Positions 7,735 through 13,331 of a DNA stretch of 64,000 nt are shown piece after piece. Within the stretch, counting starts at the first letter, position 1; every line of letters begins with the position of its first letter. The DNA is from Streptacidiphilus carbonis. Its GTDB lineage: Bacteria > Actinomycetota > Actinomycetes > Streptomycetales > Streptomycetaceae. The DNA is taken from positions 1 through 64,000 of the forward strand of contig NZ_BBPM01000002.1 in assembly GCF_000787775.1 (NCBI RefSeq), written 5' to 3'. The notes under the pieces were generated by a model. The model saw only the letters and a list, made by a program, of their open reading frames with translations. It had not been told where the DNA came from and searched no databases. Position numbers and translations under genes: made by a program.

Positions 7735-9186
7735 TCAGCCCTCGATGGACGTCATCACGTGCTTGATCCGGGTGTAGTCCTCGAAGCCGTAGGCGGAGAG
7801 GTCCTTGCCGTAGCCGGACTTCTTGAAGCCGCCGTGCGGCATCTCGGCGACCAGCGGGATGTGGGTGTTGATCCAGACGCAGCCGAAGTCGAGCTTCTTG
7901 GCAAGGCGCATGGCCCGGGAGTGGTCCTTGGTCCAGACCGAGGAGGCCAGGGCGTAGTCGACGCCGTTGGCGTTGGCGATCGCCTCGGCCTCGTCGGAGA
8001 ACCTCTGCACGGTGATGACCGGGCCGAAGACCTCGTTCTGGATGATCTCGTCGTCCTGCTTCAGGCCGGAGACCACGGTCGGGGCGTAGAAGTAGCCGAT
8101 CTCGCCGACCCGGTGGCCGCCGGCCTCGACCTTGGCGTGCGCGGGGAGGCGCTCGATGAAGCCGGTGACCTGGGCCAGCTGGTTGGCGTTGTTGAGCGGG
8201 CCGTAGAGCACGTCCTCGTCGTCCGGCCGGCCGGTCTTGGTGTCGGCGGCTGCCTTGGCCAGCGCGGTCACGAACTCGTCGTGGATGGACTCGTGCACCA
8301 GCACCCGGGTCGCGGCGGTGCAGTCCTGGCCGGCGTTGAAGTAGCCGGCCACCGAGATGCCCTCCACCGCGGCGGCGATGTCGGCGTCCTCGAAGACCAC
8401 GACCGGGGCCTTGCCGCCCAGCTCCAGGTGCACCCGCTTGACGTCCTTGGCCGCCGAGCCGGCGACCTGGATGCCGGCCCGGACCGAGCCGGTGATGGAG
8501 GCCATCGCCGGGGTCGGGTGCTCCACCATCAGGCGGCCGGTCTCCCGGTCGCCGCAGACCACGTTGAAGACGCCGGCCGGCAGGTTGAGCTCTTCGAGCA
8601 CGCCCCCGATGATCTCGGCGAGCAGCACGGTGGAGGCCGGGGTGGTGTCGGAGGGCTTGAGCACGACCGTGTTGCCGGCCGCGATGGCGGGGGCGAACTT
8701 CCACACCGCCATCATCATCGGGTAGTTCCACGGCGCGACCTGCGCGCAGACGCCGACCGGCTCACGGCGCACGAAGGAGCTCAGACCCTCCATGTACTCG
8801 CCGCCGGACTTGCCCTCCAGCAGTCGGGCGGCGCCCGCGAAGAAGCGGATCTGGTCGACCATCGGCGGGATCTCCTCCGAGGCGGTGAGCCCCAGCGGCT
8901 TGCCGGTGTTCCTGGACTCGGCGGCGATCAGCTCCTCGGCGCGCGCCTCGACCGCGTCCGCGATCTTCAGCAGGGTCCGCTGCCGTACCGACGGGGTGGT
9001 GTCCCGCCAGACCTCGAACGCGGCGGCGGCCGCGGCCATCGCCGCGTCCACATCCGCCTCGGCGGAGAGCGGTGCGGTGGCGTACGCCTCACCAGTGGTC
9101 GGGTCGACGACCTCGGTGGTGCGGCCGTCGGCCGCGTCGGCGAACGCGCCGTTGATGTAGTTGCGCAGCGTCTGAAGCTCGCTCAC
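7735..9186 (-). CDS. Gamma-aminobutyraldehyde dehydrogenase, second paralogue
   Basis: This is a 483-aa aldehyde dehydrogenase, clearly related to the product at 4281-5810. Catalytic residues are Asn in APWNYP (about 151-156), Glu255 in LELGGKAP and Cys289 in GQDC. It probably oxidises aminobutyraldehyde made by the adjacent aminotransferase. The GTG start (MSELQ...) has GGAGAGG 5 nt upstream. The open frame to 9738 only shadows the Lrp gene. It is divergent from the Lrp/AsnC regulator, so the pair is probably co-regulated. Having two such dehydrogenases within 5 kb suggests specialisation for different amines, which is an inference. Confidence 0.9.
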   Translation of the reverse strand: MSELQTLRNYINGAFADAADGRTTEVVDPTTGEAYATAPLSAEADVDAAMAAAAAAFEVWRDTTPSVRQRTLLKIADAVEARAEELIAAESRNTGKPLGLTASEEIPPMVDQIRFFAGAARLLEGKSGGEYMEGLSSFVRREPVGVCAQVAPWNYPMMMAVWKFAPAIAAGNTVVLKPSDTTPASTVLLAEIIGGVLEELNLPAGVFNVVCGDRETGRLMVEHPTPAMASITGSVRAGIQVAGSAAKDVKRVHLELGGKAPVVVFEDADIAAAVEGISVAGYFNAGQDCTAATRVLVHESIHDEFVTALAKAAADTKTGRPDDEDVLYGPLNNANQLAQVTGFIERLPAHAKVEAGGHRVGEIGYFYAPTVVSGLKQDDEIIQNEVFGPVITVQRFSDEAEAIANANGVDYALASSVWTKDHSRAMRLAKKLDFGCVWINTHIPLVAEMPHGGFKKSGYGKDLSAYGFEDYTRIKHVMTSIEG

Positions 9187-9375
9187 GGGGACCTCTCCTC
9201 GAATCCGGCTCTCCGGCTCCTTTGATGCTGGTGATGCCGGCGACGGCACCAGCCTATCCCTGTCTCTGCGGTTATCGGCAGACCTGAGCAGAAGTAACAA
9301 TGGAATCAGTATGTTTTCCGGCTTTGTGCAACGGAATCCCTTGCGAACGGGCGCACGATAGGGCAGGGTGAGGGC
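9187..9375. promoter_or_regulatory. Divergent promoter region between aldehyde dehydrogenase 2 and the Lrp-type gene
   Basis: This 189-bp intergenic region is noticeably AT-richer than its surroundings (about 9270-9350), as expected for promoters. A 7-bp inverted repeat (9227-9233 with 9247-9253) lies in the leader of the dehydrogenase. It is the likely site of autoregulation by the Lrp/AsnC protein. No exact operator was identified. Confidence 0.5.
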
Positions 9376-9849
9376 GTGGCCAACCGTGAACGGAACGGCA
9401 GCGTTCCCCTCGACTCCGTCTCCAAAGCGATCATCGAGCAGCTCCAGGAGGACGGCCGTCGGCCGTACGCCAGCATCGGCAAGGCCGTGGGCCTGTCCGA
9501 GGCTGCCGTGCGCCAGCGGGTCCAGAAGCTCCTCGACCAGGGTGTCATGCAGATCGTCGCGGTGACGGACCCGCTCACCGTCGGGTTCACCCGGCAGGCG
9601 ATGGTCGGCATCACCGTCGAGGGCGACATGGAACCGGTCGCGGACGCCCTGGCCGCCATGGACGAGGTGGACTACGTCGTCGTCACCGCCGGATCGTTCG
9701 ACCTGCTGGCCGAACTGGTCTGCGAGGACGACGAGCACCTCCTCGAACTGATCAACAAACGTATCCGCGCGCTTCCCGGCGTGCGGAGAACCGAAAGCTT
9801 CGTTTACCTGAAGCTCCGGAAACAGACCTACACCTGGGGTACCCGATGA
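9376..9849 (+). CDS. Lrp/AsnC-family transcriptional regulator
   Basis: This is a 157-aa protein. The N-terminal AsnC helix-turn-helix (about 12-60, with ASIGKAVGLSEAAVRQRV) is followed by a RAM ligand-binding domain (about 70-145). Lrp/AsnC proteins bind amino acids or related amines and act as oligomers. The start is GTG. Its stop overlaps the start of the aminotransferase by 4 nt (ATGA), so the two are translationally coupled and the regulator probably controls the aminotransferase and the divergent dehydrogenase. Confidence 0.9.
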   Translation: MANRERNGSVPLDSVSKAIIEQLQEDGRRPYASIGKAVGLSEAAVRQRVQKLLDQGVMQIVAVTDPLTVGFTRQAMVGITVEGDMEPVADALAAMDEVDYVVVTAGSFDLLAELVCEDDEHLLELINKRIRALPGVRRTESFVYLKLRKQTYTWGTR

Positions 9850-11415: not shown

Positions 11416-12228
11416 GTGACCGTCGCCCCGCCCGACAACGACGTGCTGTGGGCACGAGGGCTGGTGCACACCATCCGCGGCACCGCGGCGCTGCGCGGGG
11501 TCTCCGTGGGCGTGCGGGAGGGCGAGGTCCTCGCCGTCACCGGGCCGCGCGGCTGCGGGATGAGCACCCTGCTGGACTGCCTCAGCGGCCTGCTGCCCGC
11601 CGACGAGGGCGAGATCTGGTTCAACAGCTCCCCCGTGCACACCCTGGGCCGCACCGCCAGGGAGCGGCTGCGGCGCGAGCGCTTCGGCCATGTCGGGCCC
11701 GAGCCCCGGCTCGTCCCCGAGCTGACCGCGCGTGAGAACGTCGCGCTGCCGCTGCTGCTGGCCGGCGCCTCGCGCAAGGACGCCACCGTCGCCGCCACGG
11801 AGTGGCTTGAGCGGCTCGACGTCGCCGACTGCGCCCGGCAGCGGCCCGCCGCGCTGCGCCAGGACGAGCGCCAGCGGATCGCCGTCGCCCGCGCGCTGGC
11901 CCACCGTCCGGCGGTGGTCTTCGCCGACGAGCCGACCGCCCCGCTGCACCGCGACGCCCGGGACCAGGTCATGCGGATACTGGTCACCGCGTCCCGCTCG
12001 CACCGGATCACCCTGGTACTGGCCACCCATGACCCCGGGCTGGCCCGTTACGCGGACCGGGTGGCGACCATGGTGGACGGCCGACTCGCCGCACCGGTCC
12101 GGGCCCGCCAGGCGATGGCGGCGGCCGCCGGGGATGCCGCTGGGGCAGCCGCCTCCGACGGGGCTGCCGCGGACTCGGCCGAGCTGCTGCGGAGGGGTGT
12201 GGAGCAGTGTTCCCCTACCTCCGTCTAG
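11416..12228 (+). CDS. ABC transporter ATP-binding protein with degenerate nucleotide-binding motifs
   Basis: This is a 270-aa ABC ATPase resembling the LolD/MacB type. The Walker A segment reads GPRGCGMST, so Met49 stands where the ATP-binding lysine should be. The Q-loop Gln appears replaced (HVGPEP, about 92-97), and the LSGGQ signature is replaced by LRQDERQR (147-154). Walker B (FADEP, with Asp171 and Glu172) and the H-loop (ATHD) are intact. The protein may bind ATP poorly or depend on a partner. The C-terminal 40 residues are Ala-rich. It overlaps the permease gene by 22 nt. The substrate is unknown. Confidence 0.82.
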   Translation: MTVAPPDNDVLWARGLVHTIRGTAALRGVSVGVREGEVLAVTGPRGCGMSTLLDCLSGLLPADEGEIWFNSSPVHTLGRTARERLRRERFGHVGPEPRLVPELTARENVALPLLLAGASRKDATVAATEWLERLDVADCARQRPAALRQDERQRIAVARALAHRPAVVFADEPTAPLHRDARDQVMRILVTASRSHRITLVLATHDPGLARYADRVATMVDGRLAAPVRARQAMAAAAGDAAGAAASDGAAADSAELLRRGVEQCSPTSV

Positions 12229-13331
12229 CGCGCGGCTACGGATTCCTGGACCTCTGCCGCTGCCTGCTCACCGCCGCCGCCTCCGCCACCGTCGGCGCCC
12301 TGCTGCTCAGTGCCCTGGGCCGGGCGCTGAGCAGCCCCGAGGACACCGGGGCTGCGATCAGCCGGCTGCTCTGGTGCCTGCCCGCGCTCGCCGCCGTCGG
12401 CTACCTCTGCGCCGCCTGGGCCCGGTCGCTGCCGGCGCAGCGGCCCGAGCGCGTCGCCGGACTGGTCGCCGCCGGAGCCGGCCCGGTACGGACCCGGCTG
12501 GTGCTCGCCGGGGAGATCGCACTGATCTGCGCCCTGGGCGCGGTGCTGGCCCTGTTCGGCTTCGTGGTGCTGCGCGAGCACTGGCTGGAGCTGACCCCCG
12601 ACGGCCAACTCGACCCGACCCTGGGCGCGGGGGCGAATCTGCCCGCCGCCGGGACGGTCGCGCTGCTGGCGGTCGTCCCGCTGCTGGGCGGCCTCGCCGC
12701 CGGCGCCGCCGTGCGGTCGGTCGACCTGCTGCCGGGCGACGCCGCGGACCAGGTGCTGCGCCGACCGCCCGTCCTCTACTCGGTGGCAGTGGCGCTGCTG
12801 GCCCTCGCGGGCGCGGCCGTCGCCGTCCTCGGGCTGCGGCGGGGCGCGGGGGCCGAGGCCTGGACCGGTGCCGCGCTGGGCGCGCTCGGGCTTGCCGGGG
12901 CTGTTCCCACCTTGCTGTACCTGATCGGCGGAGCGCTCGCCACGGGCCGTCCGCGGGCCGTGCGGCTGCTGGCCGGACGTGCCCTGCAGGCAGACTCCTG
13001 GCGGCTCGGCGCGCCGCTCGCGGTGCTGGCGGTCGCGGGCGCGATGGTGGTGACGGCCTTGCTGCGGGGTGCCTCTGGGCAGCGTCCGAAGGGGCCGCTG
13101 CTGCTGGTCGAGGTGGGGCTGCTCGGCGTCTGCGTGCTGGGCGCGCTGCTGGCCAGGCTGGTCGAACTGGCCCGGACCCGACGAGGCACCTATGCGTCGC
13201 TCAGCCGGATAGGAGCGCCGGGCGCGCTGCTGCTGCGGGCGGCCGCGGTGCGATGCGGCGGCGCCGTCCTGGTCGCCGCCGCGACGGCCGCGGGGGCGGC
13301 GGCCCTCACCTCGGCGGCGCTGGCCGCGTAG
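12207..13331 (+). CDS. ABC transporter permease-like membrane protein
   Basis: This is a 374-aa, Ala/Leu-rich protein with about nine hydrophobic segments (roughly at residues 25, 55, 102, 147, 189, 217, 268, 297 and 347). It resembles the FtsX-like permeases paired with MacB-type ATPases but is shorter and lacks an obvious large extracellular domain. The GTG start lies 22 nt inside the end of the ATPase gene, with GGAG just upstream, so the two are coupled. The transported substrate cannot be inferred. Confidence 0.8.
   Translation: MFPYLRLARGYGFLDLCRCLLTAAASATVGALLLSALGRALSSPEDTGAAISRLLWCLPALAAVGYLCAAWARSLPAQRPERVAGLVAAGAGPVRTRLVLAGEIALICALGAVLALFGFVVLREHWLELTPDGQLDPTLGAGANLPAAGTVALLAVVPLLGGLAAGAAVRSVDLLPGDAADQVLRRPPVLYSVAVALLALAGAAVAVLGLRRGAGAEAWTGAALGALGLAGAVPTLLYLIGGALATGRPRAVRLLAGRALQADSWRLGAPLAVLAVAGAMVVTALLRGASGQRPKGPLLLVEVGLLGVCVLGALLARLVELARTRRGTYASLSRIGAPGALLLRAAAVRCGGAVLVAAATAAGAAALTSAALAA

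Follow-up and report, generated by a model that had tools for sequence, protein, structure and literature searches.

A probable pseudo-ATPase in a reduced type VII ABC complex at the polyamine-catabolism locus of the Streptomycetaceae

The gene at 11416-12228 in a 64,000-nucleotide stretch of the Streptacidiphilus carbonis genome (hereafter, the window) probably encodes a pseudo-ATPase, namely a subunit with a structural or regulatory role in a reduced ABC complex of type VII (FtsX/MacB-type), which all of the Streptomycetaceae sampled carry at a polyamine-catabolism locus. Most of its motif losses are old and common to the whole family, whereas the replacement of the Walker A Lys by Met is confined to a single clade of three Streptacidiphilus species, in which the gene is nevertheless maintained under strong purifying selection.

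Results

The gene (forward strand, GTG start) is translated into a 270-aa degenerate ABC-type ATP-binding subunit with a LolD/YbbA/MacB-like NBD, which contains GEVLAVTGPRGCGMSTLLDCL and has Met at residue 49. It scores 93.9 bits with the PF00005 (ABC_tran) profile (cutoff 25), its AlphaFold2 model (pLDDT 87.9) exhibits an alpha/beta fold resembling an NBD, and it falls short of the NCBIfam equivalog cutoffs for LolD, MacB, FtsE and YbbA, the best being LolD with 154 bits against a cutoff of 308. In place of the GxxGxGK[ST] of a functional ATPase, the Walker A motif reads GPRGCGMST (11542..11568), with Met49 specified by the ATG codon at 11560-11562. The Q-loop and signature positions were set by alignment to the solved-structure proteins YbbA and LolD (LSGGQ/LSGGE), which places Pro95 (11698..11700) at the position of the Q-loop Gln and LRQDE (residues 147-151; 11854..11868) at that of the LSGGQ signature. 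By contrast, the Walker B motif with its catalytic Glu is intact (VVFADEP, residues 167-173, with Asp171/Glu172; 11914..11934), as is the H-loop His205 (12028..12030), which is found in 148 of 190 sequences across the family. All of these features lie on the forward strand. The Walker A reading with Met49, the apparent loss of the Q-loop Gln, the altered signature and the intact Walker B and H-loop had been described in the first-pass annotation and were reproduced here. Two further losses had escaped it: the former D-loop reads APLH instead of xxLD (residues 175-178; 11938..11949), with His178 at the Asp position, and the A-loop position is occupied by Ile20 (11473..11475), where nearly all other orthologs have His, Tyr, Leu or Phe and canonical paralogs mostly have Tyr or Phe. 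When the 8.46-Mb genome was scanned with a degenerate DNA pattern for Walker A with Met, the gene examined here was the one match; reversed controls gave 3 and 2 matches, so the pattern by itself is not significant, although the gene context is unambiguous.

When examining the distribution of the family, it is evident that the gene is not a unique decayed copy, as the motifs are lost throughout the family. A match at E below 1e-40 was found in 299/299 sampled Streptomycetaceae genomes, although the protein matched in a few genera that branch early is a relative of greater divergence. Of the named orthologs, those from S. fuscans and S. anmyonensis match best, and those of Kitasatospora and Streptomyces come next. 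Among 190 ortholog sequences, in which some species are represented twice (genome copies plus named contigs), the Q-loop Gln is never found (0/190), the signature Ser and second signature Gly persist in just 2 and 6 sequences, respectively, and His replaces the D-loop Asp in 184. The 23 nearest paralogs in the window genome all keep canonical motifs, and the losses of the signature, Q-loop and D-loop must therefore be old and fixed. The first-pass annotation had grouped the signature and Q-loop changes with Met49; instead, these changes date back to the ancestor of the family, and what is clade-specific is Met49 alone, together with Ile20 and His92. The Walker motifs have fared quite differently, having remained under selection. 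The Walker A Lys is present in 186 of the 189 readable orthologs (one of the 190 is frame-disrupted), the remaining three being the Met clade, while the Walker B Asp is present in 190/190 and is followed by Glu in 144 and Asp in 46. Family conservation reaches 0.93 for Walker A and 0.92 for Walker B vs a mean of 0.79. Near-invariant Walker A and B motifs in the absence of the Q-loop, signature and D-loop suggest that most species bind nucleotide without forming the usual ATP sandwich.

Several other features of the family were also observed. Its most conserved part (0.96), exceeding even Walker A in conservation, is the N-terminal segment PPDNDVLWAR (residues 5-14; window 11428-11457), which is not seen in canonical paralogs. 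The early-branching sequences L248 and L249 (genera g4 and g2) keep the N-terminal PDNDVL and the Walker A Lys and are missing the signature, Q-loop, D-loop Asp and H-loop His, their signature and H-loop being even more eroded than in the family proper; a permease partner was not recognized by profile in their genera at E 1e-6. Within Streptacidiphilus, the ATPases of L007 and L009 carry Ala-rich low-complexity C-terminal extensions, yielding lengths of 342 and 330 aa vs 250-270 in congeners.

In a survey of 14 Streptacidiphilus genomes, position 49 is Met in 3, Lys in 10, and frame-disrupted across Walker A in 1 (G070, 76% complete). The Met49 sequences form a single clade with support of 100/99 and share one ATG codon, consistent with one origin. 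A sequencing error is ruled out, since the identical codon occurs in the assemblies of two other species (L004, L005). Residues fixed in this clade and rare in the 186 others include Ile20, Met49 and His92; among those others, position 20 is His in 134 and Tyr in 34, position 49 is Lys in all 186, and position 92 is Trp, Phe or Tyr. The alignment of homologues proposed in the first-pass annotation as a check on the conservation of Met therefore has a divided outcome, as Met is common to three Streptacidiphilus species and Lys is found in 186/186 readable orthologs outside of them. For the ATPase core, pairs within the Met clade have dN/dS values of 0.06-0.12 vs 0.03-0.31 among Lys-bearing congener pairs, placing the clade at the strong end of purifying selection; the permease is looser than the ATPase in all comparisons (0.25-0.27 in the Met clade). 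Low dN/dS together with open reading frames intact in three species indicates that the Met form is maintained rather than decaying, which rules out a pseudogene and, along with an intact permease, bears out the earlier view that this is not simply a decayed gene. In G070:C4 (about 8101716-8102390; L033 / L044), the reading frame of the ATPase is disrupted at Walker A and the permease is cut to 304 aa, which, given the completeness of that genome, may be an assembly error rather than real decay.

The partner permease is encoded by the forward-strand open reading frame at 12207-13331 (374 aa), which overlaps the end of the ATPase gene by 22 nt; an overlap of the two genes had been mentioned in the first-pass annotation. 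It is present adjacent to the ATPase at 190/190 ortholog loci, with an overlap of 19 or 22 nt at 136 of them. This overlap with the permease start (window 12207-12228) encodes CSPTSV/CSLSV, the conserved C-terminal end of the ATPase. The AlphaFold2 model of the permease (pLDDT 87.4) is nearly all helical, with approximately nine long helices joined by short loops. Pfam and NCBIfam gave no match for the window permease, Pfam FtsX matched 8 of 44 members of the permease family (best E 6e-4), and a Foldseek search with the model returned nothing below E 0.001, BceB and FtsX being weak matches (prob 0.91, TM 0.25-0.38). Its homology accordingly rests on profile-profile comparison: hhalign aligned it with the 767-aa, two-FtsX permease of the paralogous L216 pair (probability 96.3, E 1.9e-9, score 79), whereas 30 scrambled or reversed controls scored at most 31.6. 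Three colinear segments were recovered (2-56 to L216 permease columns 4-54, 71-278 to 221-415, and 314-381 to 631-695), of which the flanking two are individually weak. The small permease thus has FtsX-type transmembrane modules, and it lacks two stretches of the L216 permease (about 165 and 215 residues) at the presumed positions of the extracellular domains; at 374 aa vs about 750, it has no extracellular domain between its transmembrane helices. An internal repeat between the permease halves was not detected by hhalign. The best-conserved segments are the N-terminal helix 3-12, a cytosolic helix at ~247-262, and parts of the first two transmembrane helices. By position, helix 3-12 and the helix at ~247-262 would correspond to the NBD-contacting helices of the type VII class. 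With docking-type helices among the best-conserved parts, assembly of the NBD with the permease seems to be selected for, while catalysis does not. Across 297 genomes sampled from the whole class, strong matches to the permease profile were found only within the Streptomycetaceae; eight other genomes have weak partial matches (E about 1e-10 to 1e-12) in larger open frames. In one Streptomyces genome (G009:C1:6219907-6221892), a long insert lies between the permease halves, with matches split by about 800 nt within a 911-codon frame, and a split match also occurs in several other Streptomyces genomes.

Among the paralogs tested, the NBD of L216 is the sister group of the ATPase family (support 100/98). 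L216 is a canonical pair in the window genome, in which a 252-aa NBD is directly followed by its own 767-aa FtsX permease. Its gene order is identical to that of the window pair, but L216 has all of the NBD motifs, large extracellular domains and a patchy occurrence, its permease being found at E 1e-60 in 9/41 family genomes. A likely history is that a canonical type VII pair diverged and that, by the time the family radiated, it had already shed both its catalytic motifs and its extracellular domains, with the Lys being lost later in one clade.

The genes upstream of the ATPase point to polyamine catabolism. A class III aminotransferase (PRK06541; 9846..11222, forward strand) is syntenic with SCO5655 and PatA-like, an Lrp/AsnC-type regulator (9376..9849, forward strand) is syntenic with SCO5656 (EpuRII), and a divergently oriented aminobutyraldehyde dehydrogenase (7735..9210, reverse strand) is syntenic with SCO5657; the window holds a second aminobutyraldehyde dehydrogenase as well. 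At named loci with enough flanking sequence, the aminotransferase is conserved in 73/79, the regulator in 73/77 and the dehydrogenase in 76/76. The gap 5' of the ATPase gene is 140-483 nt across loci, which would fit a separate promoter; scans for consensus promoters and terminators found nothing. From gene order matching SCO5657-SCO5654, the ATPase/permease pair appears to be the syntenic equivalent of SCO5654/SCO5653 of S. coelicolor, the synteny being as reported for SCO5654-SCO5657 (PMC8998196, PMC5403932). SCO5655 and SCO5657 of that species are polyamine-induced (PMC5403932), and EpuRI binds the promoter of the sco5654-containing operon (PMC8998196). Thus, the neighborhood and the published regulator binding provide a lead toward a polyamine-linked role for the pair. 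In both papers, SCO5654 is only a putative ABC transporter, and no mention of degenerate motifs in it was found in the literature searched.

Discussion

Based upon these features, several suggestions can be made regarding the function of this family. The NBD is predicted to fold and would presumably dock on the cytosolic helices of the permease, the former suggested by modeling and the latter by helix conservation. A normal ATP sandwich probably cannot form, with the signature, Q-loop and D-loop missing in essentially all orthologs, and classical ABC hydrolysis, judging from sequence, appears to be lost family-wide. Since the locus has a single degenerate NBD gene, a canonical composite site would not be possible in a homodimer either. 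Most species probably still bind nucleotide at Walker A and B, where it would have a structural or sensing role. In the Streptacidiphilus clade of three species, where the Lys and the A-loop residue are both gone, the subunit probably acts independently of nucleotide, as a scaffold for the membrane protein or as its regulator. The first-pass suggestion of ATP binding without normal hydrolysis consequently fits the family, in which Walker A and B are kept, better than it fits the window copy, for which the loss of both Lys49 and the A-loop residue makes ATP binding doubtful. Some caution is warranted, as Cdr1 of fungi has a functional Cys (Cys193) where the Walker A Lys would normally stand (PMC3268037), meaning that loss of the Lys is no proof of lost ATP binding or hydrolysis. 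It also speaks against a pseudo-ATPase that the window copy retains the Walker B Glu and the H-loop His.

Another scenario, which we regard as unlikely, is that the degenerate subunit pairs with a canonical NBD from another locus, the two making up a heterodimer in which the partner is responsible for hydrolysis. Heterodimers with a degenerate site are common (PMC7756269), in fungal PDR transporters the Walker A Lys has even been replaced by Cys (PMC3268037), and the genome contains well over 100 other NBD-like matches from which a partner could be drawn. However, no second NBD lies beside the ATPase gene in the window stretch listed, and the nearest paralog, L216, is tied to its own permease and too sparsely distributed to be a conserved partner. 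An intact second ATPase, which the first-pass annotation proposed to look for, was thus not found at the locus, nor was a dedicated energizing partner. Furthermore, pairing with a canonical NBD would still leave both composite sites of the Met clade defective, as one lacks the subunit's own Lys and the other its own signature. A working transporter ATPase, whose catalytic site has diverged while remaining functional, is more improbable still. Glu172 and His205 are intact in the window copy and, outside the Met clade, the family has an invariant Walker A Lys, but against this stand the loss of the signature, Q-loop and D-loop in essentially all orthologs, the variability of the H-loop His and Walker B Glu, the additional loss of Lys49 and the A-loop residue in the window copy, and the early-branching L248 and L249, which are also without a signature, Q-loop and H-loop His, yet keep the Lys. 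Least credible of all is a relaxed gene on its way to loss in the Met clade, for although Met49, Ile20 and His92 all changed in one clade and a related genome (G070) has a frame-disrupted copy, the low dN/dS, the frames intact in three species and the retained permease overlap all oppose it, and the G070 frameshift is itself suspect at 76% completeness.

A pseudo-ATPase subunit within a reduced type VII complex is therefore the reading we prefer, and its key features can be set against those of known systems. Like the type VII ABC systems (LolCDE, MacB, FtsEX, BceAB, YbbAP and YtrEF), the window pair combines an NBD nearest to YbbA, LolD, MacB and FtsE with a permease homologous to the two-module FtsX type. 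Unlike them, its NBD is without the Q-loop Gln, signature and D-loop Asp, and its permease is without both of the extracellular domains upon which type VII mechanotransmission depends. Transporters with degenerate nucleotide-binding sites (TM287/288, ABCC, TAP, and fungal PDR transporters such as Cdr1) have similarly lost catalytic motifs in nature, among them the Walker A Lys in Cdr1; they nonetheless retain a canonical second site in their own complex, whereas the window system has a single NBD gene and both composite sites of a homodimer would be affected. It is conceivable, although we propose it only tentatively, that an entire ABC transporter has been converted into a non-transporting, ATP-independent membrane regulator, its NBD dead and its extracellular domains lost, which has been kept family-wide in polyamine physiology. 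The Streptacidiphilus clade would then represent the end point, having discarded nucleotide binding under strong purifying selection.

Pseudo-enzymes are well known among the kinases and proteases. To our knowledge, no stand-alone ABC system has been described that is conserved in hundreds of species and has, as its sole NBD gene, one with a degenerate signature, Q-loop and D-loop, nor was one found in the literature searched. The canonical paralog pair, the pseudo-NBD with Walker A, and the pseudo-NBD without the Walker A Lys make up a natural series, which could be used to test what an NBD is still good for to its permease once ATP turnover has been removed. For the polyamine locus of Streptomyces, it follows that reading the SCO5654-type operon as an ABC uptake transporter may mislead.
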